A DNA stretch of 22,731 nucleotides from a virus. Numbering within the stretch: the first letter of the stretch is position 1; each line of letters opens with the position of its first letter. The position numbers were made by a program, and so were the translations under genes. The notes beneath the pieces are model-generated. The model was not told the origin of the DNA. It ran no database searches and saw only the letters and a list, made by a program, of their open reading frames with translations. The stretch spans positions 1-22,731 of the IMG/VR virus record IMGVR_UViG_3300031673_000517; one strand, 5' to 3'. Of this stretch, positions 6,436 to 21,971 are shown piece after piece.

Positions 6436-6439
6436 GGCT

Positions 6440-7937: not shown

Positions 7938-7940
7938 CTA

Positions 7941-8104
7941 TCACTCCGGCGTTTTGTCGGCAGGCAGCGGCTCGTTGCCCCCGGCCAGCCATTCCAGATA
8001 CTCGGCGTAGTCCGTGTTGGCGGGGTCGAAGGGGATGAAGGCGTTGTTGAACCATCCGCGAAGGCGTTGCCAAGTTGGGCGAGGTCAAATGCTTTCGATG
8101 TCAT
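7941..8104 (-). pseudogene. Small tail-fibre-associated gene, apparently frameshifted by a 23-bp insertion
   Basis: An ATG at 8104 follows a good GGAGG Shine-Dalgarno (8110-8114). It opens a frame beginning MTSKAFDLAQLGNAFADG, an N terminus like that of many phage tail-fibre proteins. The continuation in this frame (56 aa, ending at 7934) is Pro/Thr/Ser-rich and unlike a protein. The -1 frame from about 8054 instead encodes NAFIPFDPANTDYAEYLEWL and GGNEPLPADKTPE, ending with TGA at 7941. I recognise that as the C-terminal signature of small fibre-associated phage proteins. The 9-base sequence AACGCCTTC (minus strand) occurs twice, 23 bases apart (8060-8068 and 8037-8045). Removing one 23-base unit joins the two parts in frame into a 46-aa protein. 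It may be a disrupted gene, a sequencing or assembly slip, or an exotic recoding event. No slippery heptamer is visible. Confidence 0.55.
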
Positions 8105-8116
8105 GCCAGCCTCCTA

Positions 8117-8470
8117 TTAGGCAAGCAGCGCGTCGAGCGTCAGAGCCTTGAGCGCGTCAGGGGTGGCAGCGCCAGCGATCCGAGCATCCGCAGTCACATC
8201 GCGCAGTGCCTGCTTGACCGACACAATGGCTTGCTGTGCAGCGGTGTCGCCTTCTTCCAGCGCCTTCATGTAGTCAACGTCCAGCGCAGACAGACGCGGT
8301 GCGCGCTCTGCCCGCAGGTTGTCGCGGTGGATGCCACGCGCAGCGGTCATGTCGATCTCGACAGCCGCGCCGTTGAATTGCCAAGCGCCACGAAACACGC
8401 GGTCGGCAGGGACAGTCAGCGAGCCCGCATCGCGGATGTCGCCGTTGATGTTGATAAGTGACTGAACCAT
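8117..8470 (-). CDS. Small tail-fibre-associated protein, unknown function
   Basis: This is a 117-aa protein. The start at 8470 (MVQSLININGD) is chosen because it lies one base after the stop of the preceding gene; the longer open frame reaches back inside that gene. The first half is beta-like (INGDIRDAGSLTVPADRVFR then GAWQFNGAAVEIDM). The second half is helical (YMKALEEGDTAAQQAIVSVK and onward). The motif PADRVFRGAWQ resembles the 'DRTFRNAW' motif of small proteins found directly after phage tail fibres, and the upstream neighbour has its own version (SDRTYRNAWR). The two may be paralogous or analogous fibre-associated proteins, possibly assembly factors. The role is inferred from context. 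Confidence 0.65.
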   Translation of the reverse strand: MVQSLININGDIRDAGSLTVPADRVFRGAWQFNGAAVEIDMTAARGIHRDNLRAERAPRLSALDVDYMKALEEGDTAAQQAIVSVKQALRDVTADARIAGAATPDALKALTLDALLA

Positions 8471-8471
8471 A

Positions 8472-8903
8472 TTATGCGGCCTCCTGGATTGGGTTGTCTT
8501 GATTGATCCGCCATGCGTTGCGATAGGTTCGATCAGAAGGAACCATATCAACCGGGACGATCCGCAAGATGCACCTGTTGCCTGCATAGTCACGCCACAC
8601 AGCGGGCGGAATGTCCTTTTGAATTAGATATTCGACGGCCTGTTCCTCGGTCATAGCACCGATGGGTTCAGCGTAGGGGTGTTCCTTGGGCTGGCCATCG
8701 GGCACGTCTTGATCGCGCAAATAGGCGTCGATGGGCGGCAGGATGCCACCTTCTAGTGCTGCGGCCATCCAATTCGGGTCAGGCACAAGCACAGCGGCAG
8801 CCGCATCTGGATTTGACGGGTCTTCGAATAGCACACGGTGCTTGCTTTGCACAGGTGCAAGGCGGCTCTTGGCTTCTGCTAGGCGGTCCCAGAGATGGCT
8901 CAT
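8472..8903 (-). CDS. Small tail-fibre-associated protein, putative fibre assembly factor
   Basis: This is a 143-aa protein. The start at 8903 (MSHLWDRL) overlaps the tail-fibre stop as ATGA; the ORF's further N-terminal extension is only antiphase reading of the fibre gene. It contains a helical N terminus (DRLAEAKSRL), a loop region (VLVPDPNWMAAALEGGILPP) and a compact C-terminal part with YLIQKDIPPAVW and SDRTYRNAWRINQDNPI. The 'DRTxRNAW' motif is common in small phage proteins encoded immediately downstream of tail fibres, so a fibre-assembly or chaperone-like role is plausible. No catalytic motif is visible. Confidence 0.65.
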   Translation of the reverse strand: MSHLWDRLAEAKSRLAPVQSKHRVLFEDPSNPDAAAAVLVPDPNWMAAALEGGILPPIDAYLRDQDVPDGQPKEHPYAEPIGAMTEEQAVEYLIQKDIPPAVWRDYAGNRCILRIVPVDMVPSDRTYRNAWRINQDNPIQEAA

Positions 8904-9805
8904 GCGAGGTCTCCGTCGACCGAAAATAAAGTGATAAAACAATCAAGGACGCCCATGCCAGAGCTTGTGCCGATGCTGTACCCTGAAATAAAGTTTGTTG
9001 CTGAGACCGAATAGGCCAGAGTAGAGCCCGTTGGAAAGTTCCAATAGGCAGTCGTTGAAGTTGACGACTGCCTACCAGCTGCGCCTTTAGCAGCGTAGTT
9101 GGCATTGGCAAAGGCTGCGCTATAATTTGCCGTGAAGTCACCTGTTGCATTATCAGTAAGAGAGGACAGATTAAGACTGTCACGAACAGATGGAACAGTT
9201 CCATCATAATTTGCCCAAGCTTTCGCGCTGCCATTGATAACCGTAGTGGTAGGGACCGAGTTAGTCCCATCGGATAGGTCCGTTGTCGTTACCTCATCAA
9301 ACCAGCCTTCGGCCCAGCGGTTTGCCGTGCTGCCAATGTCGCGGCTGCTGTCCGCATCCGGTATGATATCTTCATCGACCGCAGCTAGATTTGCTGCGGC
9401 CAGCGCGTCAATAGCGGCCTTGACATCTGCGGGGGATGGAACGCCTGCCTCGGTAGCAGTCCCGGCCTCCCAAGCAGCCGTGGCGTGATCCAGTGCCCCG
9501 TCCAGCAGGTTCAATTCCGCCGCCGTGGCAGTCAGGCCAAGATTGACCAGCGCCGTGGCTGCGCTTGCGAGATCGGAGAGGTTGTTCGCCCGGTGCGCAT
9601 ACCGGTCATCATTCTGAACAGCGGCGGTGCCAAGACCAAGTGTCGTACGAGCCGCCGCCGCGTCGGCGTCGTCGATTAGAGTACCACCAAACGCAGATAT
9701 GGCCGAAGTCTCAACCTTGTCAGAGTTGAGGTTGTTGAAGTTACCGTCCACCTCGGCGTTGGTGAGTGGCGACCCCTTACCTGCGCGGGTTGTGATCGTG
9801 GTCAT
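8900..9805 (-). CDS. Tail fibre protein
   Basis: This is a 301-aa protein. The N terminus, TTRAGKGSPLTNAEVDGNFN, is the typical opening of phage tail-fibre or tail-collar-like proteins ('kgspLtnaEvDaNf'). Ala/Thr/Leu repeats follow (ARTTLGLGTAAVQ, LTATAAELNLLDGA), then a DADSSRDIGSTANRWAEGWF segment known from fibre shafts, and a distal Ser/Thr/Tyr-rich part (NYSAAFANANYAAKGAAG and beyond) that is probably the receptor-binding tip. Base composition changes inside the gene: by hand count about 63% GC over 9421-9720, but about 49% over 8941-9240, which suits a distal part acquired by recombination. The start at 9805 has a GAGGTGAC Shine-Dalgarno. It is followed by small coupled fibre-associated genes. 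Confidence 0.85.
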   Translation of the reverse strand: MTTITTRAGKGSPLTNAEVDGNFNNLNSDKVETSAISAFGGTLIDDADAAAARTTLGLGTAAVQNDDRYAHRANNLSDLASAATALVNLGLTATAAELNLLDGALDHATAAWEAGTATEAGVPSPADVKAAIDALAAANLAAVDEDIIPDADSSRDIGSTANRWAEGWFDEVTTTDLSDGTNSVPTTTVINGSAKAWANYDGTVPSVRDSLNLSSLTDNATGDFTANYSAAFANANYAAKGAAGRQSSTSTTAYWNFPTGSTLAYSVSATNFISGYSIGTSSGMGVLDCFITLFSVDGDLA

Positions 9806-9813
9806 GGGTCACC

Positions 9814-10275
9814 TCACGTAGCTGCCAGAGTGATGGTCCACGTGATCTGCAGCGTGTCCGCAGCCTGCTTGTTCACGACCGGGAAAACAGTGCGGCAGAG
9901 CATGGTGCCCGCCGACAAGGCGTTAAAAATGCCCGCCTCGGTGACCGCGCCGGTACCCTCACCGGGGTCAAACGTCGCAGAATAGACAACGCTTTCGCTA
10001 ATCGTCCCGGTCAGCGTGGAACTGTCCAACGCTTTCCTCGCCCCAAGTAACGAACCGAGGTCGGTGTCGCCCGCAGCCACCGCAACCGTCCCCGAACCCA
10101 GCGCCATGTGGGACATGGCAGCGGGAGGCGGGTCGATCATGCGCCCAGCAATGTAACCTACGCCCGTATTGACGACGAGGTTCCGCACTTCCCGCATGTC
10201 CTTGAGCTTGCCGCTGCCGTCTCTGAGCACTATGGTCAGGTGGCCTGCCAAGCCGAGCTTATCGCGTGGGTTCAT
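9814..10275 (-). CDS. Putative tail protein preceding the fibre
   Basis: This is a 153-aa beta-rich protein. Recognisable pattern elements are an opening strand pair (GHLTIVLRDGSGKLKDMREV), then NLVVNTGVGYIAGRM, MSHMALGSGTVAVAAGDTDL, and a C-terminal TFDPGEGTGAVTEAGIFN. This order ('hiaiGtGt.a...dt.L', then 'f...e.tg.i.EaGif') is common in small tail or baseplate-fibre proteins of phages. I infer a tail-fibre network component. The ATG at 10275 follows a GAGGAG Shine-Dalgarno, and the gene ends 8 nt before the fibre start. Confidence 0.7.
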   Translation of the reverse strand: MNPRDKLGLAGHLTIVLRDGSGKLKDMREVRNLVVNTGVGYIAGRMIDPPPAAMSHMALGSGTVAVAAGDTDLGSLLGARKALDSSTLTGTISESVVYSATFDPGEGTGAVTEAGIFNALSAGTMLCRTVFPVVNKQAADTLQITWTITLAAT

Positions 10276-10286
10276 TTGGTGGCTCC

Positions 10287-10763
10287 TCAGAAAGTCAGGG
10301 ATGTCCCGACATAGCCCTCAGCGAAATAGTCGAATGCGCAGTAATCCTGCATCCGCAGCGATCCACTATCCGCGACGGCTGGCGCGTCTATAATAACAGC
10401 GTTGGCCCGGCGCGCAACTGTTTCCGCTGCGCCGGCCCCATCAGCCAAATCCTTGGCCGAAGTAACATCCTGCTCGTCGACGACGCCAACATCATCAGCG
10501 CGGCCCTTTCGCACCTCCAGCACAAACGATGAAATCGTGTACCCGAACTGGACGTAATCCTCGGCGAAATAGCTTCCGCCCTCGGTTGACGCCGTCAGGC
10601 TGTCGTTGACCACCAACCGTTTGATAAACCGCCCGGTAGCGGCTTTGATGCGGATATACGGCACCGCTATAGACATACGGAACGCCGCGACCGAGGTCGT
10701 AGTCTTGAGCCGCACCGCCCGGACAAGCGCGCGGATACGGTCGTTATCCGTATAGAGCTTCAC
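10287..10763 (-). CDS. Hypothetical tail-region protein, GTG start
   Basis: This is a 158-aa protein starting with GTG at 10763, chosen because it overlaps the upstream TGA as GTGA. It contains two related aromatic motifs, GGSYFAEDYVQFGYTI near the middle and CAFDYFAEGYVGTSLTF at the C terminus, suggesting an internal duplication or a repeated strand-turn element. Between them is an acidic loop region (DDVGVVDEQDVTSAKDLADG). The N terminus is basic (DRIRALVRAVRLKTT). I recognise the 'YFAEDYV' motif from phage proteins of unknown function next to tail fibres. A structural role in the tail tip is likely from position. Confidence 0.6.
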   Translation of the reverse strand: MKLYTDNDRIRALVRAVRLKTTTSVAAFRMSIAVPYIRIKAATGRFIKRLVVNDSLTASTEGGSYFAEDYVQFGYTISSFVLEVRKGRADDVGVVDEQDVTSAKDLADGAGAAETVARRANAVIIDAPAVADSGSLRMQDYCAFDYFAEGYVGTSLTF

Positions 10764-11110
10764 GCATAGTCCTCACGCAACCGGAACTTCAGGGTGTCGT
10801 AGACCGTCTGGCGAACGCCCGTCGCCAACACGACCTCGATCTCGCCCTCATAATCGCCGGGGTCTTGGTCAAGGTCAGTCGCCCCCCACACCACGGTGGC
10901 CAGTCCCTGCGTGGCGGTAGAGACGGGGATAACCAGCGCCCGGCTGAACAGGGTCACCCCTGTGGCTTCGGAGCGGAAGTGCAGCGCCGCCGTCGCACCG
11001 GACAAGTTGATCGGGTCGCCCGTCACCTCGTCGGTCAGTGTAACCTGCACCTGTGGGCCTGTGTCGCCCTGCACCAACCGGATGCGGGTGTCCATAAACC
11101 GTGCGTCCAT
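10760..11110 (-). CDS. BppU-N-terminal-like tail/baseplate domain protein
   Basis: This is a 116-aa protein that is essentially one beta-sandwich domain. It begins with RIRLVQGDTGPQVQVTLTDE, then PINLSGATAALHFRSEATG, WGATDLDQDPGDYEGEIEV and a final VYDTLKFRLREDY. The 'GDtgp...vtl.d..g.pidLsgatv.f..r' opening followed by 'pG.Y.gei.v....g....' is the pattern of the BppU N-terminal family (PF10651 type), small domains used in phage baseplates and as fibre adaptors. The ATG at 11110 follows AGGAGG with 5-nt spacing. It is translationally coupled to the downstream gene (GTGA). Confidence 0.75.
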   Translation of the reverse strand: MDARFMDTRIRLVQGDTGPQVQVTLTDEVTGDPINLSGATAALHFRSEATGVTLFSRALVIPVSTATQGLATVVWGATDLDQDPGDYEGEIEVVLATGVRQTVYDTLKFRLREDYA

Positions 11111-11119
11111 GCTGACCTC

Positions 11120-11794
11120 CTATGCAAAGCGTGGGGCGCGCGCCGTCAGCGCCGCCCTCATATGGCCAAGGTTCGCATGTGCCCGGTACTCCATGACCCG
11201 GGCGAGGAACTGCTTCGCGTGGTACGAAGCCAACTCGCGGTCGAGCCATGGCGTGTTGGGCAGTACGAGCAAGTCTTGGAGGGCCTTGCTGACGATGGCG
11301 TCCTCCAACTCATCCATCACCGCCTCGTCCATATCGCTGGCGGAGCGAGTGGGCTTCAGCGCGTAGATCATGCGCAGCGTGTACGTCTCGGCGGCATCGG
11401 GCGGCGGCAGTACGAGATACTGCGTCGGTGCGACCTGCGTGAGGCAACGGGGCTGGCTGCCGTTATCGGCGATGTCCTGCGTCGTCGTAGAGGCCCGGAC
11501 CCAACCGGGGAACAGTCTGGCCGCCGTCTCCAATGCGATCGGGGCGAGCGTCTCGTTCTCGTTCAGGGCGGTGTGCAGCAGCGCCGCGATGTCCGTGTCG
11601 GTCGGGAGGTTGTAATCGTAGCGGTAGGTGCCCGGGACCAAGCTGAACGCAGGCTGCTCGTAGCGCCATGCCAGCGTCCGCTCGCACGTCACGCGCGCCG
11701 CGTTCCGGGTGTACTGGACGATCAGGGGCAGTGAGCAGCCGGGAACGCTGGGGTTGATCCGGGCGGCGAGCGAGGCAAACGTACGACGGGCCAT
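11120..11794 (-). CDS. Putative head-tail connector/adaptor-like protein
   Basis: This is a 224-aa protein. The N-terminal part has RRTFASLAARINPSVPGCSL, followed by strand-like segments (YRYDYNLPTDTDIAALLHTA, LTQVAPTQYLVLPPPD). The C-terminal half is helical (EAVMDELEDAIVSKALQDLL and YHAKQFLARVMEYRAHANLG). Similar conserved proteins in podovirus-like genomes sit directly after the DUF6682-like adaptor gene. Its start overlaps that gene's stop as TGATG (11794). I infer a connector or tail-adaptor role from the neighbourhood; no motif proves it. Confidence 0.6.
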   Translation of the reverse strand: MARRTFASLAARINPSVPGCSLPLIVQYTRNAARVTCERTLAWRYEQPAFSLVPGTYRYDYNLPTDTDIAALLHTALNENETLAPIALETAARLFPGWVRASTTTQDIADNGSQPRCLTQVAPTQYLVLPPPDAAETYTLRMIYALKPTRSASDMDEAVMDELEDAIVSKALQDLLVLPNTPWLDRELASYHAKQFLARVMEYRAHANLGHMRAALTARAPRFA

Positions 11795-12438
11795 CAGACA
11801 ACACCTCCACGGGGCATACCGGCCATCTCGGTGTCCGTGATCTCACGGGCCTGCAACGAGGTGCCCAAGCTCTGGGTGAATGAATCGAGGAACAGCTTCG
11901 CGCGCCCCGAGTTGACGTGTTCGTCGTCAATCGACGAGGCAAGGAAGACCGCGCCGTCGACCACGGACGGGAAGTACGCCTCCGGCAGCACCGTGATCTC
12001 CTCGGCAAGGGTGTAATCCGTAGGGACCTTCGCATACTCGCCGAGCAGCACAACACCCGGGATTGGGCGCGGGTACAGGAAGTATTTGTTGGCGTTGCGG
12101 ACATGCCGCATGTAGTTGTACGGCGTCCCGGGCGGATCAGACACCCAGTTCGGATACCCCTGATCCATGGTTTCCCGGTTCACCTCGGTTACGGTGTTGC
12201 CGTTCTTCACCTGATAGATTTCAATCAGGCGCAGCGCGTCCGTCGGGAGCGACTGCAGAGCGGTGTTGGCCGTGGTCGTGATCTCACCATAATGGGCAAA
12301 CAGATCGGGCCGCAGGACCGCCATGCGCTTGAGCGTCTGGTTGACAAAGCCGAGAAGCTCCGCATCCGAATAACGCTGCGGCGCACGGCTGTCGCCAACA
12401 AGCCTGCGGACTTCGGAGATGATCTCGGCTGGTGTCAT
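11794..12438 (-). CDS. Head-tail adaptor-like protein (DUF6682 type)
   Basis: This is a 214-aa protein. It starts with a helical segment, ISEVRRLVGDSRAPQRYSDA, then ELLGFVNQTLKRMAVLRPDL. This 'll.d.....rws..ell.wlN.a...i' pattern is shared by phage head-tail adaptor/connector proteins (the gp6-like group and DUF6682). Beta-like segments follow (LRLIEIYQVKNGNTVTEVNR, NKYFLYPRPIPGVVLLGEYA) and a long C-terminal helical part (AYFPSVVDGAVFLASSIDDE) that is also typical. The protein would form the ring beneath the portal. The ATG overlaps the previous stop as ATGA (12435-12438). Confidence 0.75.
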   Translation of the reverse strand: MTPAEIISEVRRLVGDSRAPQRYSDAELLGFVNQTLKRMAVLRPDLFAHYGEITTTANTALQSLPTDALRLIEIYQVKNGNTVTEVNRETMDQGYPNWVSDPPGTPYNYMRHVRNANKYFLYPRPIPGVVLLGEYAKVPTDYTLAEEITVLPEAYFPSVVDGAVFLASSIDDEHVNSGRAKLFLDSFTQSLGTSLQAREITDTEMAGMPRGGVV

Positions 12439-12710
12439 CCGGGCAGACCTTGCGATGCGTCAGCCGAAAGCTCCGGCGACGTGGCGGGCGGCGCGTCGTC
12501 CACCTGATCCTCGGGCGTGGAGAAATCCACGGCGGCGGTCTTGGTCTTGGCGCGCCTTTGTTTGACTTTTTCGACCTGCTCAGGTTTCACGAAACGCTCG
12601 GGGAAGGCTTCTTCCTCGGTCACTTCCACGCACTTCGGGTTTTTGGCGAGGATCGGGTTCCACCCGTAGATGAACCCATCGACTTTGTTGCGCAGATACT
12701 TGGTGGTCAT
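12435..12710 (-). CDS. Small hypothetical protein with disordered acidic tail
   Basis: This is a 91-aa protein. The start at 12710 (MTTKYLRNKVDGFIYGW) has an AGAGGAAG Shine-Dalgarno and overlaps the preceding TGA as ATGA; the ORF extends further upstream only in the frame overlapping the previous gene. The N-terminal 45 residues look folded (VDGFIYGWNPILAKNPKCVE, with an EEEAFPERFV segment). A Lys/Arg patch follows (KVKQRRAKTKT), then an acidic, Pro/Ser-rich tail. Similar small proteins occur in many phage structural clusters. Function unknown. Confidence 0.6.
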   Translation of the reverse strand: MTTKYLRNKVDGFIYGWNPILAKNPKCVEVTEEEAFPERFVKPEQVEKVKQRRAKTKTAAVDFSTPEDQVDDAPPATSPELSADASQGLPG

Positions 12711-12943
12711 TGTGACTTCCTCTTTCCAGATGGCGTTACCGGCCATGATTTGCGGGTCGAACTTGTCTTCTTCGCGGCCATGGACCGCTTTTCAGCGGCG
12801 GTCATTTTAGCGGCGGCCTTGGCGGGTCTACAAGCCGGATAGGAGCGGCTGGACTTCTCGCCACCGGAGCGACCGCAGGGCTTGCCGGTCTTCACATCGA
12901 CCCACTTTTCCCCGAACCATTTGCCCAACCCGCCCTTGCTCAT
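12707..12943 (-). CDS. Small basic protein
   Basis: This is a 78-aa, strongly basic protein. The start at 12943 (MSKGGLGKWFGEKWVDV) overlaps the previous stop as ATGA. It contains TGKPCGRSGGEKSSRSYPAC, with two cysteines, followed by Lys/Ala-rich helical sequence (AKAAAKMTAAEKRSMAAKKT) and a basic tail. I recognise this 'GKWFgekWVDvktgkpCGRs' arrangement as widespread in phages, without an assigned function. Its high positive charge and small size suggest nucleic-acid or virion association, which is inference. Confidence 0.65.
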   Translation of the reverse strand: MSKGGLGKWFGEKWVDVKTGKPCGRSGGEKSSRSYPACRPAKAAAKMTAAEKRSMAAKKTSSTRKSWPVTPSGKRKSQ

Positions 12944-13116
12944 TTCTTCACCCGGTTGTCCGGACCACGCCAGCCACCGCCCCGCTTCTTGTACTCCTTC
13001 GAGGCCCACGCATTGGCGTAGGCAGAGGGGTACACGTCAAACTTCTTCTTGGCCCCAGCTTTCACGCGAGACCAGAGGGCCGGGTTGGTGGGCTTGGGGC
13101 TGCTCTTGTCTGCCAT
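12940..13116 (-). CDS. 58-aa basic protein
   Basis: This is a 58-aa gene. The ATG at 13116 lies 1 nt after the preceding TGA, and its own stop overlaps the next ATG as ATGA. The sequence contains NPALWSRVKAGAKKKFDVYP, then SAYANAWASKEYKKRGGGWR. This compact 'KFDVYPSAYANaw..keYK..GGgWr' motif is one I recognise from small basic phage and giant-virus-type proteins of unknown function. Fifteen or so Lys/Arg residues make it strongly positive. It belongs to a run of coupled small basic genes. Confidence 0.65.
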   Translation of the reverse strand: MADKSSPKPTNPALWSRVKAGAKKKFDVYPSAYANAWASKEYKKRGGGWRGPDNRVKK

Positions 13117-13117
13117 G

Positions 13118-13378
13118 TCAGCACTTCCACGCTCTCAGAGACTTGTTTATCCGGCTGTTCGGGTCGCGCTTGGTCTTCTCGCTGGTCAGCTTCTTCTTCA
13201 TCCCTTCCATCCGGGCGCAGAAGCTGGCGCGGCGGCCCTTGTCCTCCTTGGTCTTCGGGTTCGGCGCGGGGGGCTTGAGGTTCATACCCTGTTTCTTTGC
13301 CGATGCGCGCCCTTTCGCGTTCAGACCACCCTTGGGGTCTTTGCCTTCCTTGCGCTGCCACGCCGGAGATTTAGCCAT
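13118..13378 (-). CDS. DUF6321-type small basic protein
   Basis: This is an 86-aa protein. It shows the DUF6321 pattern nearly end to end: SPAWQRKEGKDPKGGLNAKG, then KPPAPNPKTKEDKGRRASFC, ARMEGMKKKLTSEKTKRDPN and SRINKSLRAWKC. It has two cysteines (one in SFCARM, one at the C terminus) and is very basic. The start at 13378 overlaps the fibre-like gene stop as TGATG. The biochemical role of the family is not known to me. Its conserved place among head and connector genes suggests a virion or assembly function. Confidence 0.8.
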   Translation of the reverse strand: MAKSPAWQRKEGKDPKGGLNAKGRASAKKQGMNLKPPAPNPKTKEDKGRRASFCARMEGMKKKLTSEKTKRDPNSRINKSLRAWKC

Positions 13379-14376
13379 CAGCTTGTGACCCCCTTGATGA
13401 CGGCGAAGCTGAGCACCAGCGTGTCGGTGCCAGCCGCAGGAAGCGTGCCGTTGTCGTTGTTCCCGATGGAGATTGTGCAGGACCCGGCGCTGACGCTCGT
13501 CACAGCAATGGTGTAGTACTTCCGGGTCGCGGCATCTGCGCCGGACTTGATGTTTACGATCACAACATCTGTCGCGGCAATCTCGCTGTTGGTTAGGGTG
13601 AACTCGTCTGCCTCATGTCCGGCGAGTGACCCGGCGACGAGTGTGATCGCCCCACAGGCTTGGTTCAGCGTCACACCGGTCGTGCGGCTGGTAAGCTGTG
13701 TGACCGTGCCCCCGGCACCGGTAGCGTACCCCGCACCCTGCGTGGCAAGTACCGTCGATCCACGGATGGTCGAAACTGCCGTCGCGCCAATGGTTGTCCC
13801 GTCGATGGCTCCGCCGTCGATGTCCACCTTTGGGAGGTTCACCTCGCCCGTGCCCTTGGGCGTGATGTCGATGTCGATGTCGGTATCTGTACCGTCAGCC
13901 GTCAGTGCCTGTCCTGCAAGCGTAAGACCCGCGTCCAATGTATCCGTGAAGAACGAGGTCGCGGTGATCGAGGTGATACCGTTAAAGGTACCAGTAAACG
14001 TCACGCCGCTGATAGAGCCGCCGGTGACGTTGATGTTCGAGATATTGACAGAGCCTGTGCCGTTCGGCGCGAGGATCAGATTCCCGTTCGCGTCCGTCGT
14101 GGCAATCGTGTTGCCATCGAACGACAAGTTGTCAGTGGTTACGGCACCTGTGCCGTTAGGTGTAAGCTCGATGTCACCATTGGTGTCCGTCGAAGAAATG
14201 GTGTTGCCGTCGAACTGGATGTTGTCCACAGAAACGGACTGCGTACCAACCTTGAGGGCTGTCGCCACGCCAGTACCGCCGTAGACAACTTTTTCCGTCG
14301 CCGCAGGACCATCGTCGACATGGAGGAGTTGGTCGAACGTCGCGCTGATATTTGAGCCCGTTAGGTTTATGGGCAT
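13378..14376 (-). CDS. Repetitive head-fibre / surface-fibre-like protein
   Basis: This is a 332-aa, Thr/Gly/Asp/Asn-rich protein with almost no Cys or Trp. It contains near-repeats of about 30 residues: FDGNTISSTDTNGDIELTPN then GTGAV, FDGNTIATTDANGNLILAPN then GTGSV, and a more diverged TDIDIDITPKGTGEVNL. These look like turns of a beta-helix or triple-stranded fibre shaft. The C-terminal 110 residues (from about GYATGAGGTVTQLTSRTTGV to FAVIKGVTS) form a separate beta domain that I recognise as a recurrent C-terminal domain of phage surface/decoration proteins. Its position after capsid and decoration genes favours a capsid fibre over a tail fibre, though either is possible. Confidence 0.7.
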   Translation of the reverse strand: MPINLTGSNISATFDQLLHVDDGPAATEKVVYGGTGVATALKVGTQSVSVDNIQFDGNTISSTDTNGDIELTPNGTGAVTTDNLSFDGNTIATTDANGNLILAPNGTGSVNISNINVTGGSISGVTFTGTFNGITSITATSFFTDTLDAGLTLAGQALTADGTDTDIDIDITPKGTGEVNLPKVDIDGGAIDGTTIGATAVSTIRGSTVLATQGAGYATGAGGTVTQLTSRTTGVTLNQACGAITLVAGSLAGHEADEFTLTNSEIAATDVVIVNIKSGADAATRKYYTIAVTSVSAGSCTISIGNNDNGTLPAAGTDTLVLSFAVIKGVTS

Positions 14377-14401
14377 GGGCGGGGTCCTCTCGTAAGGTGA
14401 G

Positions 14402-14421
14402 GCAGGCCCCGAAGGGCCTGC
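14402..14421 (-). other. UUCG-tetraloop RNA hairpin between decoration and fibre genes
   Basis: In the minus-strand transcript there is a perfect 8-bp stem (GCAGGCCC) closed by a C(UUCG)G tetraloop, just after the 104-aa gene stop. No U-run follows, so it is not a standard rho-independent terminator. It may protect the upstream mRNA end or act as a weak attenuator. Confidence 0.6.
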
Positions 14422-14424
14422 TCA

Positions 14425-14739
14425 TTAGCTCGGGGTTACGGCGTTTGTACCATCAGCATCGACCCAAGTTGAGTTGGCGTTTGCGCCAGTCGCAACCTTG
14501 AGCTTGCTGTTGGTCACATCGAACACGACGGTTCCGGCAACCTTGCCAGTCGTGTTCACCGCATTAGCGATAGCCGCGATATTTGCCGCTGTCGCCGTGC
14601 GAAGCTGGATGTAGCCAGCCGTCGCAACTACGTTACCGGTCAACGTACCTGCAAGGGTACCGCCCGTCACCGTCACGTTGTAGAGCGTACCACCGTTAAT
14701 AGTGGCATTGTCCTGCGTTACTCCGCGATAGACACCCAT
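14425..14739 (-). CDS. Small decoration-like structural protein
   Basis: This is a 104-aa beta-rich protein. The N terminus (DNATINGGTLYNVTVTGGTL) is Thr/Gly-rich like fibre repeats. The middle is helical/Ala-rich (TATAANIAAIANAVNTTGKV). The C terminus has GTVVFDVTNSKLKVATGANA then NSTWVDADG, a motif common in phage head-surface and fibre proteins. The ATG follows AGGAGG (5-6 nt spacing). It is bracketed by two UUCG-loop hairpins and lies directly after the 160-aa protein, suggesting a separately tuned expression level. Probable capsid decoration; not proven. Confidence 0.6.
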   Translation of the reverse strand: MGVYRGVTQDNATINGGTLYNVTVTGGTLAGTLTGNVVATAGYIQLRTATAANIAAIANAVNTTGKVAGTVVFDVTNSKLKVATGANANSTWVDADGTNAVTPS

Positions 14740-14758
14740 CTTAGCCTCCTGAGTTGGG

Positions 14759-14780
14759 GGTGGGGGCCGAAGCCCCCACC
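14759..14780 (-). other. UUCG-tetraloop RNA hairpin between the 160-aa and 104-aa genes
   Basis: The minus-strand RNA would form a perfect 9-bp GC-rich stem (GGTGGGGGC pairs with GCCCCCACC) closed by a C(UUCG)G tetraloop, immediately after the 160-aa gene stop. A C-rich tract rather than a U-run follows, so a stability or attenuation role is likelier than full termination. Confidence 0.6.
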
Positions 14781-14781
14781 A

Positions 14782-15264
14782 TTAGTTACAGTCAGCCACG
14801 ATGGCCCAGACCTTCATCACCGCCGTATCCGCCGCGTTCACGGTCGTCACGTCGATAGTGTCGGCAGCACCGTAGTACTTACCGAACCCGAAGGCAGGGG
14901 ATAGCGTGTTCGGGGCACCTTCAACCAGCGTAACCGTCGTGGACGAGTAGCCAGCTGCGGTGTTGGCGTTCACACCATCGAGGAAGCCATCCGGGTCAAC
15001 CCCGTCGCCCACGTCGATAGTCAGCGTGCCGCCCTCGGCGGTGGTCACGTCCAGACCGACAGCCAGAACTTGCGTCTTAGCTGGAATCTGGATGACCTCG
15101 AGTACGTCACCCCCCGTTAACGCAGTGGCACCAGCGGCAGCACGTGCTGCCGTGATGGCTGCGAAGTCGAGTTCTACTTCGAGCTTCAGGACCGCACCGA
15201 TACCCTTGGCGGGGTAGGCGGCAACGCCTTTGTTGAAGCCCAGCGAGTCAGTGTAAGTAGTCAT
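14782..15264 (-). CDS. Putative capsid decoration/head protein
   Basis: This is a 160-aa protein. It opens with TYTDSLGFNKGVAAYPAKGI, then a strand and helix LKLEVELDFAAITAARAAAG, and beta-rich remainder (VLEVIQIPAKTQVLAVGLDV, TLTIDVGDGVDPDGFLDG). The 'ipagt.vl.v.ldv.tae.gt.ti.vGd..d.dgfl.g' pattern is common in phage head proteins encoded immediately after the major capsid protein. The ATG at 15264 follows AAGGAGGG. It is probably abundant in virions, as a decoration or auxiliary head protein. Function is inferred from position and pattern. Confidence 0.65.
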   Translation of the reverse strand: MTTYTDSLGFNKGVAAYPAKGIGAVLKLEVELDFAAITAARAAAGATALTGGDVLEVIQIPAKTQVLAVGLDVTTAEGGTLTIDVGDGVDPDGFLDGVNANTAAGYSSTTVTLVEGAPNTLSPAFGFGKYYGAADTIDVTTVNAADTAVMKVWAIVADCN

Positions 15265-15277
15265 GCGTCATCCCTCC

Positions 15278-16204
15278 TTACGAGAACGAAATGACGGCCT
15301 GAGCAAGAGCTTCCGGCTTCACAACTTTGTAGCCGTAGACTTGCAGACCGCGAACGATGTTGCCGAAGGTCGACTCGGAGCGGATGGTTTCCATCTCGGT
15401 CATCTGAGACGCGAAGGTGAAACCCATCTTGTGGCCAGCGATGAGGCTGTACTTACCGCTCGATACGTTCAGGTTGTGCGACACGTAGACCGTGAAACGG
15501 TCGATCATGCCGAGACGCCCATTACGTAGGACCGAAGTGCCATCGCCAGAGAGCGATGCGTCCTTGAGTTCCGACTTCTTGATGAGGTTAGCCAGCTTCG
15601 CCGGAATAACAACATAGCGGTCAGATTCAGGAACGTTTGCTTCGTCCAGAACAGTGCCCATGTCGACAAGCAGATCGACAACAGCAGTGGTCGAGGACGC
15701 ACCGTCCTTGGTGACGACCAGCGGTGAGCCGGTAGTGCCAAGGTTGAACGAGGCCGACTGCTCGCCTGCGGTTGCACCTTTGTTGGTGGCCGCAATGTCG
15801 GGCAACATATCGGTCAACACGCGCTGGTCGATCTTGATCTTCATACGCTCAGAAGCGTCTTTGGACCAAGTGTCCATGAGGTTGATATCCGACTGGATGC
15901 GATCAACATCGTCCTCAACGCAGGCGAAGTACTCGCCCTTGTCGATGACAAGCTGCAGCTTCGGCTTGTCAGGGTTTTCAACGGTCAGAGTTTGACCTTT
16001 GACGTAATCCCGAATGGTGATTTCCGGGGTGGTACGGATGTTAACCGTATCACCGAAAGAGCGGATTTCACCTTCGTAATCGGTGTTCGAGATCGCGGAC
16101 AGCACGGTGGCGTCGTAGAAATTCTCGATCAGTTTACCCGACCAAATTTCGGGGATGAAGTTGCCGCTGTAGTTGGGGCGGCCACCCGATACGGGGTAGG
16201 ACAT
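15278..16204 (-). CDS. Major capsid protein
   Basis: This is a 308-aa protein. The N-terminal arm carries FIPEIWSGKLIENFYDATVL. It is followed by a strand segment typical of phage coat proteins (GEIRSFGDTVNIRTTPEITI, then RDYVKGQTLTVENPDKPKLQ) and the acidic VEDDVDRIQSDINLMDTWSK helix. These form the E-loop/P-domain pattern of the HK97-fold coat proteins, here most like the P22/N4-type group. The later part (RYVVIPAKLANLIKKSELKD, VYVSHNLNVSSGKYSLIAGH) is the A-domain pattern seen in the same family. The start has an AGGAGATAAATC leader. It sits between scaffold-like and decoration-like genes, as expected. Confidence 0.88.
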   Translation of the reverse strand: MSYPVSGGRPNYSGNFIPEIWSGKLIENFYDATVLSAISNTDYEGEIRSFGDTVNIRTTPEITIRDYVKGQTLTVENPDKPKLQLVIDKGEYFACVEDDVDRIQSDINLMDTWSKDASERMKIKIDQRVLTDMLPDIAATNKGATAGEQSASFNLGTTGSPLVVTKDGASSTTAVVDLLVDMGTVLDEANVPESDRYVVIPAKLANLIKKSELKDASLSGDGTSVLRNGRLGMIDRFTVYVSHNLNVSSGKYSLIAGHKMGFTFASQMTEMETIRSESTFGNIVRGLQVYGYKVVKPEALAQAVISFS

Positions 16205-16221
16205 GATTTATCTCCTGTGGA

Positions 16222-17226
16222 TCATGCAGTGACTATGCGACCTTCCCGCTGTGCAGCGAAAATGTCACGTTCGATGCGGTCACGCTCATCTTCCCGCCCT
16301 TTATACTTCCCCTTCTGCACATCAGTGAAGAAGTTTTTGATGTCATCAGAGGAGTATGTCTTGGGTTCGCCTGCGGCGCGAGATGTCCCAGAGCGTCCAC
16401 GCCCCGGGGCCACCTGCTTCTCAAGCTGAGAAGGCTGAGCCGTCCGATTAGTCTGAGCATCCGGTACACCAGACAACCCTTTCCAAGCGGAGAAGAAATT
16501 CGCCACCCGACGGACATCCAGACTACGCTGAGCGTCATCCAGATAGGTCTGGCGCGGAATACCCGTGAGCGGATCGACTTCCAACAGCCACGACTGGAAG
16601 TCGCGGTTGGTGTTTACGTCCTGCCAGTCAGGTACAGCCGTCTGTAGGTCCGCCCAAAACCGCTGTTCCTCTGACACGGCATGGCTCCGCGAAAGCTGGT
16701 GGACCTGAGGGACCACGGTGCCTTGCATCTGCCGCACCAAATGCCTGAGTTCGTTGATCTCGGAGTCCTTAGAGGACATCTCCTCGCGGAAAACTCTCCG
16801 CATTACATCGATTGAGTCGCCGTAATCTTCCACGTCTTGCGCGGTAACGAGCTTTTCCATGGGAGCCTGTGGCTTCACAGGCGCGGCATTCATCGAAGCG
16901 ATCAACTGTTCAAGCTGCTGAACACGGTTGGTAAGCTCACGCCTATCAGCGTGAAGCCGGGGAACCTCGGCGTTGTACATACCCTGCAGGGTCTTGTACT
17001 TCTGCTCAAGGGTCTTCTCAGTCTTGTCGCCTTCAGGCTGCTCTTTTGCCGTGGGCGCGGGTGCTTCCTTCGCTACACTGTCGGCGTTTCTGCCCTGTGA
17101 TACATCCTCAACACCTTCCTGTTCAGGTTCGGTCGTATCGACCGCCTGTCCATTCTCTGCGTTGAGTTCTTCGTACAGTTTGTTAACTGCCTCAGACTGT
17201 TTGCGAACTTGCGCTGGTAGTGCCAT
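16222..17226 (-). CDS. Capsid scaffolding-like protein
   Basis: This is a 334-aa, highly charged, Glu/Gln/Lys-rich protein. The first 100 residues are acidic and low complexity (NAENGQAVDTTEPEQEGVED). Residues about 85-190 are coiled-coil-like (EQKYKTLQGMYNAEVPRLHA, DRRELTNRVQQLEQLIASMN, SEINELRHLVRQMQG). A basic region near the C terminus (VQKGKYKGREDERDRIERDI) fits the coat-binding end of scaffolding proteins. It lies directly before the major capsid gene and after the portal and a small gene. The start at 17226 follows GGAGCG. Composition plus position support scaffold; a fused protease is not visible. Confidence 0.75.
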   Translation of the reverse strand: MALPAQVRKQSEAVNKLYEELNAENGQAVDTTEPEQEGVEDVSQGRNADSVAKEAPAPTAKEQPEGDKTEKTLEQKYKTLQGMYNAEVPRLHADRRELTNRVQQLEQLIASMNAAPVKPQAPMEKLVTAQDVEDYGDSIDVMRRVFREEMSSKDSEINELRHLVRQMQGTVVPQVHQLSRSHAVSEEQRFWADLQTAVPDWQDVNTNRDFQSWLLEVDPLTGIPRQTYLDDAQRSLDVRRVANFFSAWKGLSGVPDAQTNRTAQPSQLEKQVAPGRGRSGTSRAAGEPKTYSSDDIKNFFTDVQKGKYKGREDERDRIERDIFAAQREGRIVTA

Positions 17227-17260
17227 AGTGAACGCTCCTATCGGTGTGCGTAATCAACAG

Positions 17261-17485
17261 CTATCCATGTTTGGATTCTGCCGCGAGGTCAGGGGATTTT
17301 TCCATAAGATCACGAAGCTCTTTCAGAACCTGACACCGCCCCTGTGCAAGTGCCACGTTCTGACCAACACTGGGTAGCTGCTCCATCTCATGGCGACACC
17401 AACCGTCGATCCACTGATGGACCTCGGGAAACTGGCGCACCGTCAGAGCTAGAGCTTTGACTACTCTGGGGTCAGGGCGCTTCAT
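17261..17485 (-). CDS. Small hypothetical protein between portal and scaffold
   Basis: This is a 74-aa, mostly helical protein. It begins RPDPRVVKALALTVRQFPEV and continues with HQWIDGWCRHEMEQLPSVGQ and a terminal helix VLKELRDLMEKSPDL. The ATG overlaps the portal stop as ATGA (17482-17485), so it is probably translated together with the portal. Small helical genes at this place are common in podovirus-like genomes. I see no motif that gives a function. Confidence 0.65.
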   Translation of the reverse strand: MKRPDPRVVKALALTVRQFPEVHQWIDGWCRHEMEQLPSVGQNVALAQGRCQVLKELRDLMEKSPDLAAESKHG

Positions 17486-19542
17486 CCTGCACCCCCAGTG
17501 TCACGATTCATCACGGTGTTTGCCTGCTGCCCGCCCATAGGCATACCGCCCGGTAGGGTGGGCGTCGGCGCACCGGCTTGTTGTCCGCCCTGCGTAGCCT
17601 GCATGGCCGCAACCTGCGCGGCCAGTTTCTGCTCGTGGGACATCTTCTCCCGCGACGGGATGATCTCATCGACCGGCATCTGCAGGCCCTTGGCGACTTC
17701 GCGCAGGATAGCCGCACGCCCGGTGGGACCCATGATCTCGATGTCGATGGGGTTGGCCGTGGCGTTGAGGAACTCGACGCGGCGGATGTTGACCGTCTCC
17801 TTGACCGCGAGGTTGATCGCCCCGCGTGGCACGATCTCCACGTCGCCCTTAATCGACTCGTCGGGATCGTAGCGCATGTTGTAGACGAACTGCCGCTTGA
17901 CCACGGGGTGAATGATGTCGTTGTCGATGTGCATCACCACCTGCCGGATACCCTTGCCCGCCGACCCCATCAGCATGGACAAGCCCGAGGCTGTGCGCCC
18001 GGCCCCCTGCACGTTGGTGTCGCCGTAGATGTAGGCCGGTATGCCGCTGTGGTCGTCCGCCATCCGCGAGAACCGGTCGTAGACGCCCATCAACTCGTTG
18101 GCACGTGAATCCGGCTGCGAGAAGCGCACGGCAGGCGCACTCGACCCGAGCGGGTCGTTCATCGTCTGCCAGATTTTCCACGGGTGAAGCTGGGTGATGT
18201 CCTCGTTGGGCGGGATGCGCTCGAGGTTGACCTCGACCTGCGGGCCGGAGGCGATGGCCATGTTGTTCACGAGCGCCCGGGCTGCCGCGTTACAGATATT
18301 TTGGACATCTTCGATGATCTCGGGGATGCCCTTGCCCCAGAATGCCCCGGGCTGCTTGATGAAGCTCGTCTTGGCATAGGGCTTTTCGCCCAGCGGGTCG
18401 TAGTTCAGCACCGCCTTGATGACGTAGTTCCCCACGACCCAGACATTGGCGTCGTACTCCCGCGCCGCATCCGGCACTTCCTCGTCGCTCAGGCCCCACT
18501 CGCGGAGCATCTCGCCGTTGACCTTGCCCCAGAACTCCAGAGCATCGAACATGTCGGTCGGACGCATCTCGGTGTAGTACAGCCGCTCCTGCTCGTCCTT
18601 CCCCTCAAGCCCCTCGCTGATCCACGACTGCCCGTTGCCGATCTCCAGCACTTTGCGGATAGCCTCGTCGTCGTAGCCCGGCACACCGATCAGGTCCGCC
18701 AGTTCCATCCGGCTCATGTGGTGGTGCTCGAAGACATACCCGTCGTCGATGTGCCGGATGCCCGGCTCTGGGTACATGCGGAAGGGATCGACCCGCTCAA
18801 ACTCCGGCCCAAGCCGCTCTGTGGCCTCGACGACCGTGGTCCCGTTGACCTTGTTATACCCCAGCACCCGCTGGCGGCGCACCACTGGCCCCTTCACAAA
18901 GGCAGCCGGGAAGGTCACGAGGTCAGTGATGAACTCGTTGAACGCCTCAGACCACCCGCCCTGCTCGAACTGATCCTCGATCTTGTACTTCATCTTGTCG
19001 GCGCGGTTCTGCGCCTCCTGCAGCACCCGGAACCGGTAGTCCTGCGCGACCATCTCGCGTAGTTCGGTCATCTCCTCCACCGTAGGGGCCTGCCCCCGCG
19101 ACTGAAGCATCTCGACAACCTTGGCCCCGAACGCCTGTTCGATCTCGGTGTCAGTGTCCGGTGACAGGTCAGGGATGGTCGTCGGGTTCAAATCCCACGG
19201 CGGCATCCCTTGGTCGAGCATGATGTCCCGCAGCCAACTCTCAGCGGCCCGGCACTTCACCTCGGTAATCATCATATAGACCTCGGAACCACCTTGGTTC
19301 CTGATCTGACTCATCTTGTCCGCTTCGTACTCACCGTTGCGCTGCCGCATGGCGCGCAACATGATGTCTTCGATGGGCTTCTTGGCGATGCGTGCGGCGT
19401 CCCAGCACTCGCGCAGATACGCCGTCAGGCCGAGGATGAGAGGGGTGTTCTGCCGTGCCTGTAGCTCACGATCAATCCGCTCACGTTCCTGCCGGTCGAG
19501 AGCTTCATTATTAACTACGCGAAGAATTGTCAGGCCAGCCAT
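17482..19542 (-). CDS. Portal protein
   Basis: This is a 686-aa protein, starting at 19542 (MAGLTILRVVNNEALDRQER). The start is chosen for the GAGAGG Shine-Dalgarno 6 nt upstream; the nine extra upstream codons overlap the promoter. It is mostly helical with acidic and amphipathic segments (LRECWDAARIAKKPIEDIML). Mid-protein hallmarks of podovirus portals are GWSEAFNEFITDLVTFPAAF then VKGPVVRRQ, PFRMYPEPGIRHIDDGYVFE, KTSFIKQPGAFWGKGIPEII then EDVQNICNAAARALVNNMAI, and RTASGLSMLMGSAGKGIRQV. The C terminus is Gln/Gly/Met-rich and probably disordered. It forms the dodecameric DNA channel that docks the terminase and the head-tail adaptors. Confidence 0.92.
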   Translation of the reverse strand: MAGLTILRVVNNEALDRQERERIDRELQARQNTPLILGLTAYLRECWDAARIAKKPIEDIMLRAMRQRNGEYEADKMSQIRNQGGSEVYMMITEVKCRAAESWLRDIMLDQGMPPWDLNPTTIPDLSPDTDTEIEQAFGAKVVEMLQSRGQAPTVEEMTELREMVAQDYRFRVLQEAQNRADKMKYKIEDQFEQGGWSEAFNEFITDLVTFPAAFVKGPVVRRQRVLGYNKVNGTTVVEATERLGPEFERVDPFRMYPEPGIRHIDDGYVFEHHHMSRMELADLIGVPGYDDEAIRKVLEIGNGQSWISEGLEGKDEQERLYYTEMRPTDMFDALEFWGKVNGEMLREWGLSDEEVPDAAREYDANVWVVGNYVIKAVLNYDPLGEKPYAKTSFIKQPGAFWGKGIPEIIEDVQNICNAAARALVNNMAIASGPQVEVNLERIPPNEDITQLHPWKIWQTMNDPLGSSAPAVRFSQPDSRANELMGVYDRFSRMADDHSGIPAYIYGDTNVQGAGRTASGLSMLMGSAGKGIRQVVMHIDNDIIHPVVKRQFVYNMRYDPDESIKGDVEIVPRGAINLAVKETVNIRRVEFLNATANPIDIEIMGPTGRAAILREVAKGLQMPVDEIIPSREKMSHEQKLAAQVAAMQATQGGQQAGAPTPTLPGGMPMGGQQANTVMNRDTGGAG

Positions 19543-19560
19543 TGGGTACCTCTCAGGTGT

Positions 19561-19589
19561 AATATACACACCAACCTATTTCACGGCAA
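19561..19589 (-). promoter_or_regulatory. Sigma70-like promoter for the portal/head operon
   Basis: On the minus strand, TTGCCG (19584-19589) and TATATT (19561-19566) are separated by exactly 17 nt. They match 4/6 and 5/6 of the sigma70 consensus. It lies between the terminase terminator and the portal start, and would give a very short leader beginning near the GAGAGG Shine-Dalgarno. It is predicted from pattern only. Confidence 0.5.
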
Positions 19590-19691: not shown

Positions 19692-21947
19692 CTATGTCCA
19701 GCCGAGGGATGCAACAGGTTTTACCTCCCTCCGCTGTATCATGTGCTGCCCCTCCCCTGCGGACGCTATATGTAGCATCAGGTACTGAAGTGCTTCGGCC
19801 ACGTGGCTGTGTTTGTTCTTGTCGATCCCGCCGTTCTTGTCGAACCGGTAGCCGCCCATCATGGCAGCCTTGAGCCGCGTGCAGCGTGGGTCGAGCAGAA
19901 ACGCAGGGTCGCCGTCCACCTGCCGCATGAGGTAGTCGTCCACGGCGTTGATCCGCGCACTGACCTTGTTGGTCTTGGCCGGGATGACCCGCAGCCCCTC
20001 GGCCTTGATGATGTCCACTGCCGACCGCTCGTCGGTCTGCGCCCGCTGCACACCCGCCGGGTCCACCACGATGAGGACCGGCGCACCGGAGAAGCGTTCA
20101 TATAGCAGGGGTTTGAGCATCGTGCGGACGAAGCGTTGAATCCCCATGTCGAAGCTCACAAGCTCGTCGAGAACCAAGGCCCGCCCGCGAGGGTCCTGTT
20201 GCCCCAGAACCGCCGCCGGGGTCAAGCCCAAGTCGACCCCCACGATGAGTGGCCGCACCCCATTCAGCAGTGGTCTGAGCGTCTGGCTGGCCATGTGGTA
20301 ATCCGGGCGGAAGTACTGGTAGACCGGTTGCCCGTTGCTGCTCAGCCCGTACTCTCCGTCGATGAAGACCCGGATGTACTCCTCCGAGCGACCCTGTGTG
20401 TCGTAGTACCCATCCGGCAGGTTCTCGATGTTCTCGGCGTAGACGCTCCGCCCCGAGGGTTGCTTGAACACATCCCACCCGTTGTTGTTCGGTGAGACGC
20501 CGTCCTTGGGGTCGAGGCGTTCGAGTTGGTAGTACCACCATGTGTCCATGGTTGGCGGGTTGGTATCCCCCCACATTCCGAACCACGTCGGTCCACCGTC
20601 CTTGGAGGACGGGAATCGCCCAATACGTTTCGACATGGCGTCGACGATCTCGGGGTGGATGTCCCTGCACTCGTTGAACCACGCGAACGTAAGCTCCAGC
20701 GAGTTGAGGTTGGCCACGTCGTCGGCGTCGTCCAGCGCCCGGAACATGATCTCGCACTCGATGTCGCCCACCTCGAAGAAGTAGGTCTTGGTGGTGCGCA
20801 TGTACCGCCCACACACCCCCGGCGGGAACCAGTCGAGGAACGTCTTGATTGTCGTGTCCTGAAGTTGGCGTGCCGTCTCACGGACGATAGCCGCCCGCGT
20901 CCTGCGCTTGCCGGTATTGGCATCTGGCTCCTGCAGCGCCGCCCGGCGGATGATCTCGAAGCTGCATGACACGGACTTGCCCGAGTTATGATGGATCGCC
21001 CCATCCACCGTAACGTAGTTGTTTGTGTCAAGTACCTGCATGTCCCAGTAAGACCGCTTGACGGCCTCCCGGGTAACCGATACGATGGCCCCGTCGGATA
21101 TGGAGGGAATGTCCAATGGGTGAGAACACGAAGAAGATTGTGGCTCTGGCAGACGGCACTCGTACGTCTGCGGAGATAGCCGGGCTTGTTGGTCTGACAC
21201 CACGCTATGTCCGTAAGGTCCTGCTAAGGCTAGACCTTCCACGCCGGGGAGAAGGCGCACAACCGGGTGCAGCAAACCATCAATACAAGACAGGGCGGCG
21301 TATAGACTTTGACGGGTACGTTCTTGTAACCGCCCCATCAGACCACCCCTACGCCCGCCAGCGGACCAATCGCGCCGGTAAGCTGATTTATGAACATCGT
21401 CTGGTGATTGAACAAAAGCTAGGTCGGTACCTTCTTCCCGAAGAAGTTGTAGACCACGTTGACGGGCTGACTCTGCATAACGCACCAGACAATCTACGGC
21501 TGTTCTCGTCGAACGCGGAGCATCTTGCAGCGACAACGGTTGGCCGCACAAAACTTTGGTCAGCGCAGGGATATCAGAACATAGGGACAAGGACTGACCG
21601 GGGCAAAGTGATCCAACAGGTAGATAGCTATGGTCAGCGGCGTAAGTCCGGTGATGTTCGTTTGCGGCAAATACTCCTTGCGGCGTTATCACTTGAAGCA
21701 GATAGTCCGTACCTTTTGGGAACGCACCACCACACCAAGAAAGCTGGAATCGACATGTCTTGTCGCTCCACGATACAACGCGCATTGGACGATCTATACG
21801 CCAGATGGGTATAGGCCCATACTCGGTAAGCACCAAAGTGTCGGGTGCAACGCACCCAACGGGGCCCATCAGCACGCGCATCTTCGCGTCCGACTCCATG
21901 AACTTCTGCCCGGTGGGCGGTGGGGTGTAGTCGATTTCCAGTGACAT
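19692..21947 (-). CDS. Terminase large subunit interrupted by an intein in the Walker A motif
   Basis: The ORF has 751 codons. The ATG at 21947 (MSLEIDYTPPPTGQKFMESD) is preferred over GTG at 21956, because GGGGTG lies 6 nt before it and this is the usual terminase N terminus. Residues 32-321 are an intein. Splicing would join GPVG to SGKS, restore the P-loop GPVGSGKS and leave a terminase of about 461 aa. After the intein come a Walker B-like strand (LTFAWFNE, about residue 422), the RNase H-like nuclease acids (VGVDLGLTPAAVLG; VLIVVDPAG) and the C-terminal KHSHVAEALQYLML. This is the ATP-driven DNA packaging motor with headful or cos-type cutting. Without splicing, the ATPase site would be split by 290 residues, so splicing is presumably essential. 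It is followed by a terminator. Base composition of the C-extein (about 63% GC in a 300-bp sample) exceeds that of the intein. Confidence 0.95.
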   Translation of the reverse strand: MSLEIDYTPPPTGQKFMESDAKMRVLMGPVGCVAPDTLVLTEYGPIPIWRIDRPMRVVSWSDKTCRFQLSWCGGAFPKGTDYLLQVITPQGVFAANEHHRTYAADHSYLPVGSLCPGQSLSLCSDIPALTKVLCGQPLSLQDAPRSTRTAVDCLVRYAESARQRGLQLLREEGTDLAFVQSPDDVHKSAYRRDWSAGGRRGGLMGRLQERTRQSLYAALSCIDGLLHPVVRLLPGVEGLALAGPYGHSVVSDQQARLSPQTYECRLPEPQSSSCSHPLDIPSISDGAIVSVTREAVKRSYWDMQVLDTNNYVTVDGAIHHNSGKSVSCSFEIIRRAALQEPDANTGKRRTRAAIVRETARQLQDTTIKTFLDWFPPGVCGRYMRTTKTYFFEVGDIECEIMFRALDDADDVANLNSLELTFAWFNECRDIHPEIVDAMSKRIGRFPSSKDGGPTWFGMWGDTNPPTMDTWWYYQLERLDPKDGVSPNNNGWDVFKQPSGRSVYAENIENLPDGYYDTQGRSEEYIRVFIDGEYGLSSNGQPVYQYFRPDYHMASQTLRPLLNGVRPLIVGVDLGLTPAAVLGQQDPRGRALVLDELVSFDMGIQRFVRTMLKPLLYERFSGAPVLIVVDPAGVQRAQTDERSAVDIIKAEGLRVIPAKTNKVSARINAVDDYLMRQVDGDPAFLLDPRCTRLKAAMMGGYRFDKNGGIDKNKHSHVAEALQYLMLHIASAGEGQHMIQRREVKPVASLGWT
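21058..21086 (+). promoter_or_regulatory. Sigma70-like promoter for the antisense HNH gene
   Basis: On the plus strand, TTGACG (21058-21063, 5/6 of consensus) and TACGAT (21081-21086, 4/6) are separated by exactly 17 nt. They lie inside the DNA that encodes intein blocks F-G on the other strand. Transcription would begin near 21093, about 9 nt before the GGAGGG ribosome-binding site. It is predicted from pattern only. Confidence 0.5.
21102..21107 (+). promoter_or_regulatory. Shine-Dalgarno of the antisense HNH gene
   Basis: GGAGGG on the plus strand ends 8 nt before the ATG at 21116. It is a strong ribosome-binding site, facing opposite to all other genes here, and it supports that ATG as the true start of the HNH endonuclease. 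Confidence 0.75.
21116..21814 (+). CDS. HNH homing endonuclease encoded antisense within the intein
   Basis: This is a 232-aa protein on the strand opposite to the intein. Residues 6-42 form a helix-turn-helix (TSAEIAGLVGLTPRYVRKVL). Residues 65-136 are an HNH_3-type nuclease: GYVLVTAPSDHPYARQRTNR, EHR at 93-95, VVDHVDG with the likely catalytic His114, then N122, N126 and NLRLFSSNAEH ending in His136. The C-terminal part (VDSYGQRRKSGDVRLRQILL, CRSTIQRALDDLYARW) is basic and helical and could help DNA recognition. It has its own promoter-like sequence and GGAGGG site. It lies wholly inside the intein gene, opposite intein residues 14-246, and probably cuts intein-free terminase genes at the P-loop site to spread the intein. 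This homing role is inferred. It is the only convincing plus-strand gene in the window. Confidence 0.93.
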   Translation: MGENTKKIVALADGTRTSAEIAGLVGLTPRYVRKVLLRLDLPRRGEGAQPGAANHQYKTGRRIDFDGYVLVTAPSDHPYARQRTNRAGKLIYEHRLVIEQKLGRYLLPEEVVDHVDGLTLHNAPDNLRLFSSNAEHLAATTVGRTKLWSAQGYQNIGTRTDRGKVIQQVDSYGQRRKSGDVRLRQILLAALSLEADSPYLLGTHHHTKKAGIDMSCRSTIQRALDDLYARWV

Positions 21948-21971
21948 CAGTCGCACCCCATAACGATCTTA

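Follow-up and report, generated by a model that had tools for sequence, protein, structure and literature searches.

The large terminase (TerL) gene of the viral record IMGVR_UViG_3300031673_000517 is interrupted by what we take, with a probability of about 0.88, to be a mobile intein with divided coding, its homing endonuclease being encoded by an independent gene in antisense. The window, meaning the whole 22,731-nucleotide stretch that was analysed, had been read in a first-pass annotation as holding a continuous intein, a sense strand without an endonuclease and a complete HNH gene on the other strand. The coordinates of TerL, the 290-aa intein and the 232-aa HNH open reading frame were confirmed from the sequence, and the central claim stands, with the same arrangement recurring in 88 members of the family. 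Comparison across these members indicates that the antisense-HNH intein is a real, overlooked and recurrent kind of mobile intein. The other genes scanned in the window (1283-19569) lie on the minus strand and are podovirus-like, including a head-tail adaptor, major head protein, internal virion protein, endolysin and tail fibre; no tRNA genes were found in the window.

The terminase intein and the HNH gene opposite it

TerL, including its intein, occupies 19692-21956 on the minus strand as one frame of 754 aa from a GTG. The N-extein (21855..21956, minus) comprises 34 aa from the GTG at 21956, with a later in-frame ATG at 21947, and the C-extein (19692..20984, minus; 430 aa plus stop) begins with Ser+1 of SGKS. 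Between them, the 290-aa intein (20985..21854, minus) is inserted within the Walker A loop GPVG^SGKS, splitting it into GPVG^C...HHN^SGKS, with the Cys1 codon at 21852-21854, the His-Asn end at 20985-20990 and Ser+1 at 20982-20984. C1, H289 and N290 are invariant in the alignment of the intein family, and every locus listed has either Ser or Thr as its +1 residue. Within the N-terminal splicing part (residues 1-92, blocks A and B; 21579..21854, minus), C1 and H68 are invariant, and the block B Thr is replaced by Asn in the window; in the C-terminal splicing part (residues 249-290, blocks F and G; 20985..21110, minus), Asn often takes the place of the block F His among members of the family. 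The Pfam Intein_splicing profile matches the window intein weakly (E 0.056) and is matched by 48 of its 62 relatives, at best with E 3e-9. Profile searches of the sense frame in the window and its relatives returned no match to any endonuclease family. We also considered an RNA intron and rejected it, as the insert had no Rfam match at E 0.5.

Structure predictions, made from alignments without GenBank phage rows, give the intein a HINT, or mini-intein, fold. The AlphaFold model is confident for residues of about 1-140 and 250-290, and Foldseek places the Ssp DnaB and DnaE mini-inteins first (E 6e-8). Residues 153-246 (21117..21398, minus) are predicted to be disordered and appear to be read-through of the N-terminal half of the HNH gene. 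The element therefore has a nucleophile at position 1, a His-Asn end, Ser or Thr at +1, a predicted HINT fold and in-frame insertion with empty alleles, all of which are expected of an intein; the in-frame endonuclease domain of a canonical maxi-intein precursor is absent from it.

The HNH gene lies entirely inside the intein on the plus strand (21116..21814) and encodes 232 aa plus a stop. Intein residue r faces HNH residue of about 246-r, such that the C-terminal tail of the HNH protein is encoded opposite intein blocks A and B. An N-terminal helix-turn-helix (HTH) region (residues 1-45; 21116..21250, plus) is followed by an HNH_3 catalytic core (residues 92-133; 21389..21514, plus). The family phrog_10730 matches residues 6-231 (E 3e-59) and Pfam HNH_3 matches with E 1e-7; HNH_3 is present in all 40 of 40 HNH members, and the catalytic residues H94, H114, N122 and N126 are invariant. 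AlphaFold models the protein with a pLDDT of 87; the HTH stands at the N-terminus, followed by the HNH core and, at the C-terminal end, a helical tail. The predicted core shares its fold with I-HmuI-type HNH homing endonucleases (Z 6.8, rmsd 3.8, 85 residues), a middling match to solved folds, from which the window protein differs in its HTH and in the tail encoded opposite the splicing blocks.

Constraint on both strands and expression signals

Of the three antisense frames in the first 69 related loci and in the window, one and only one runs across the HNH region without a stop, always in the same relative frame, and the two others usually hold 2-16 stops. Position 1 of an intein codon lies opposite position 1 of an HNH codon, 2 opposite 3 and 3 opposite 2, so that the usually most constrained position of each gene is set against the freest of the other. 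The HNH stop is nearly fixed, mostly 19-40 nt from the Cys1 codon. When synonymous codons of the HNH gene were shuffled, a mean of 6.4 stops arose in the intein frame, compared with 0 observed in 41 of 41 non-redundant loci; the converse shuffle of the intein gave a mean of 4.5 stops in the HNH frame.

Substitutions in 19 disjoint pairs were sorted by their effect on each frame, with rates expressed relative to opportunity. At the intein ends outside the HNH gene, intein-synonymous changes reached 2.69 of opportunity versus 0.40-0.68 for intein-nonsynonymous ones, a pattern indicating constraint on the intein only. Over residues 14-90, which span N-terminal splicing blocks, changes that altered one frame but were silent in the other stood at 0.77-0.84, and double changes at 0.41, indicating that intein and HNH are both constrained. 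In the intein middle, HNH-silent but intein-altering changes rose to 2.37 versus 0.59-0.79 for HNH-altering changes; there it is mainly the HNH that is conserved, and the sense frame appears for the most part to read through this stretch passively. These rates point to a reading frame on each strand that is conserved and under selection.

The HNH gene is also preceded by conserved promoter-like and ribosome-binding signals of its own, predicted from the sequence and placed inside the intein gene. A conserved Shine-Dalgarno sequence, GGAGGG (21102..21107, plus), lies 8 nt 5' of the HNH ATG, and a sigma70-like candidate promoter, TTGACG-17-TACGAT (21058..21086, plus), occupies a conserved position; both fall within codons of the C-terminal part of the intein. 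Controls were generated by keeping the intein protein and recoding it with the codons of the host gene. A Shine-Dalgarno match of at least 4 nt was found in 34 of 41 loci, and the mean match was 4.17 versus 1.70 in the recoded controls. Promoter scores averaged 9.79 versus 8.43 in recoded controls across 39 clusters, with a z of 12.8 that is not a probability, since related loci are not independent and clustering at 70% reduces this dependence without removing it. The -35 element sits at the same position in 26 of the 39 clusters, two loci carry a perfect TTGACA-17-TATAAT, and in four of six HNH-degenerate loci the promoter was no better than controls. Scanning of the region found one such site in the window where shuffles give 0.7, and the case for the promoter is thus one of conservation rather than of a single match. 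We suspect that the promoter is used and the HNH gene transcribed from it.

Distribution and probable mobility

Protein searches of annotated phages recovered full-length HNH in nine records (seven Pectobacterium phages, Dickeya phage Setonix and Pseudoalteromonas phage PHS3), each of which also matched the intein at the same place. IMG/VR scans with HNH and intein queries brought the total to about 98 distinct inteins, of which the 88 noted above have a full-length antisense HNH within a continuous terminase frame. In the remaining members the HNH is truncated or decayed and the intein is open wherever the locus is complete; no sense-strand endonuclease was found among the approximately 98. 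The first-pass annotation had named two sequence patterns that would speak against its reading, namely related inteins that keep their middle without an antisense HNH and HNH homologues that never lie opposite inteins; neither was observed. Where the HNH is incomplete, the middle has been lost or has decayed, and full-length HNH homologues were found only opposite these inteins, with none seen free-standing outside them in phages, plasmids or IMG/VR, where the remaining matches cover part of the protein, mostly the HNH core. When bacterial genomes were scanned with one query, a single locus emerged, and it was the only full-length match in 100 genomes from its phylum, and the actinobacteriophage records in the collection searched had no match to this intein family.

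Besides the approximately 98, a prophage of E. coli strain MEI003 (L253; NZ_CP071263.1 147328-155703) carries the element. RefSeq annotates its HNH and calls the terminase a pseudogene missing its N-terminus, yet an uninterrupted frame of 802 aa runs through the intein. In PHS3 (L003; KX912252.1 15455-22354), the HNH is annotated and the terminase start is placed near the intein end, such that the annotation leaves out the N-extein and the greater part of the intein.

Several observations bear on mobility. The Walker A motif is uninterrupted in 69 of 79 close TerLs, some of them 92-93% identical to the window C-extein, and at the DNA level the flanks of these empty sites join cleanly. In E. 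coli, a detectable copy is present in 1 of 5426 genomes and a terminase matching at 90% or more in 774, carrier included; one E. coli allele examined among the 774 was empty. Inteins about 40-47% identical occur in TerLs without detectable similarity to each other, the divergent C-exteins having been called terminases by eye from translations. Within the close group, one locus (L013) has a TerL of 78% and an intein of 90% identity and another (L021) a TerL of 84% and an intein of 60%, so the sequences indicate that intein and terminase relatedness disagree. Seven members (L035, L069, L154, L156, L158, L171 and L068) have partly lost or broken the HNH and keep the intein frame and the splicing residues, a decay with intein retention that resembles the usual homing cycle. 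Taken at the level of sequence, the distribution of the element fits homing.

The intein of L171 (L171:115-633) has 173 aa, with a decayed HNH core, and is close to a mini-intein; across from where the HNH active site used to be encoded it retains a helix (LGRYADMAREYG), and this helix may therefore matter in the sense protein. In L058, L160 and L161 the intein is longer, at 336 aa, with the sense frame open throughout, and the N-terminal HTH region is matched a second time, weakly, within the antisense HNH, which may reflect a duplication.

We propose that the strand coding for the terminase also specifies a HINT-type splicing domain, which would excise itself from the Walker A loop and thereby restore the packaging ATPase. 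On this view, the opposite strand of the same DNA holds a distinct gene for an HNH homing endonuclease, equipped with a promoter, a ribosome-binding site, a start and a stop, and production of the protein would not depend on the late terminase gene. The HNH protein would cleave terminase alleles that lack the intein, at the conserved Walker A codons, and repair of the break would copy the element into the cut allele. Splicing, promoter use, target cleavage and homing are inferred in this scheme.

The HNH might instead be a domesticated phage gene, such as a packaging or exclusion nuclease, that shelters in the intein and is not the homing endonuclease of the site. Packaging roles are possible for HNH proteins near terminases (PMC11855218), but the sporadic presence of the element, its many empty alleles, the loss or decay of the HNH in some members, the constant association of full-length HNH with this intein, and the incongruence between intein and terminase make this unlikely, and a homing endonuclease encoded antisense to its intein is the reading that we prefer.

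Relation to known elements

Maxi-inteins, with the endonuclease in frame between blocks B and F, share with this element the HINT splicing domain, insertion at a conserved catalytic motif, an endonuclease within the element, and empty and degenerate forms; here, however, the endonuclease is outside the precursor protein, as a separate antisense gene overlapping the N-terminal splicing blocks. In fractured genes, split inteins have a free-standing homing endonuclease between their halves. These likewise associate a free endonuclease gene with an intein, whereas in the present case the host gene and intein frame are continuous and the endonuclease is superimposed rather than placed between halves. 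A 2025 bioRxiv preprint on actinobacteriophage inteins of non-canonical architecture and the work of Gorbalenya (1998) on non-canonical inteins are said to deal with overlapping frames. In our literature search, the antisense-endonuclease layout was not found described for an intein in any of the papers retrieved. We consider it fairly probable that these ~870 bp hold three superimposed layers, namely a splicing element, an autonomous antisense homing-endonuclease gene, and a promoter and ribosome-binding site within splicing-domain codons, and that they represent a distinct, widespread class of mobile intein, which would be the first among inteins to have its endonuclease in antisense.

Antisense homing-endonuclease genes are known from group I introns in nuclear rDNA, for example I-DsqI, whose endonuclease is active (PMC9548176). 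These are also self-splicing elements with an endonuclease gene on the opposite strand, but the intron is RNA and the same bases do not have dual protein coding, unlike those of the window element. Closer in one respect are the ShiLan domain and the Pacc40 insertion in mycobacteriophage methylases, where an HNH gene is hidden in another frame of an insertion that leaves the host frame open (PMC11855218). In ShiLan a single transcript serves both, the HNH being read from its third frame, and there is neither a splicing domain nor a detectable ribosome-binding site (PMC11855218), whereas that of the window is antisense, with a Shine-Dalgarno sequence and a promoter-like site, and is accompanied by an intein whose predicted fold provides a splicing domain.

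By this precedent of an open-frame HNH insertion (PMC11855218), the window insert could be a non-splicing one that is simply tolerated by the terminase. We regard this as very unlikely, as an ATPase would hardly tolerate a Walker A loop left split by an unspliced insert; the splicing residues are invariant, the predicted fold is that of a mini-intein, constraint at the ends is on the intein only, and the splicing parts are kept in members with a decayed HNH. Least credible of all is that the HNH frame is a functionless artefact opposite an ordinary degenerate intein, for although long antisense frames are common in GC-rich DNA and the window has many such mechanical open reading frames, the comparative data argue strongly against it, with a full-length family match, invariant catalytic residues, amino-acid conservation higher in the HNH than in the intein frame, strong purifying selection on the HNH frame, and conserved Shine-Dalgarno and promoter sequences.

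An intein whose endonuclease is encoded on the complementary strand would be another way of coupling splicing and mobility, beside in-frame fusion and fractured arrangements, and predicts that the endonuclease can be produced independently of the late host gene. It would also provide a long, conserved antisense protein-coding overlap of about 700 bp in which constraint on each strand is measurable. The element exposes an annotation problem: either the HNH is called and the terminase is shortened or labelled a pseudogene, as in PHS3 and MEI003, or the terminase is called and the HNH missed, as in records of the Ymer-group phages, where the paper on these phages mentions neither intein nor HNH (PMC11445585). 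As the carriers include cultured phages, splicing and homing are directly testable there.
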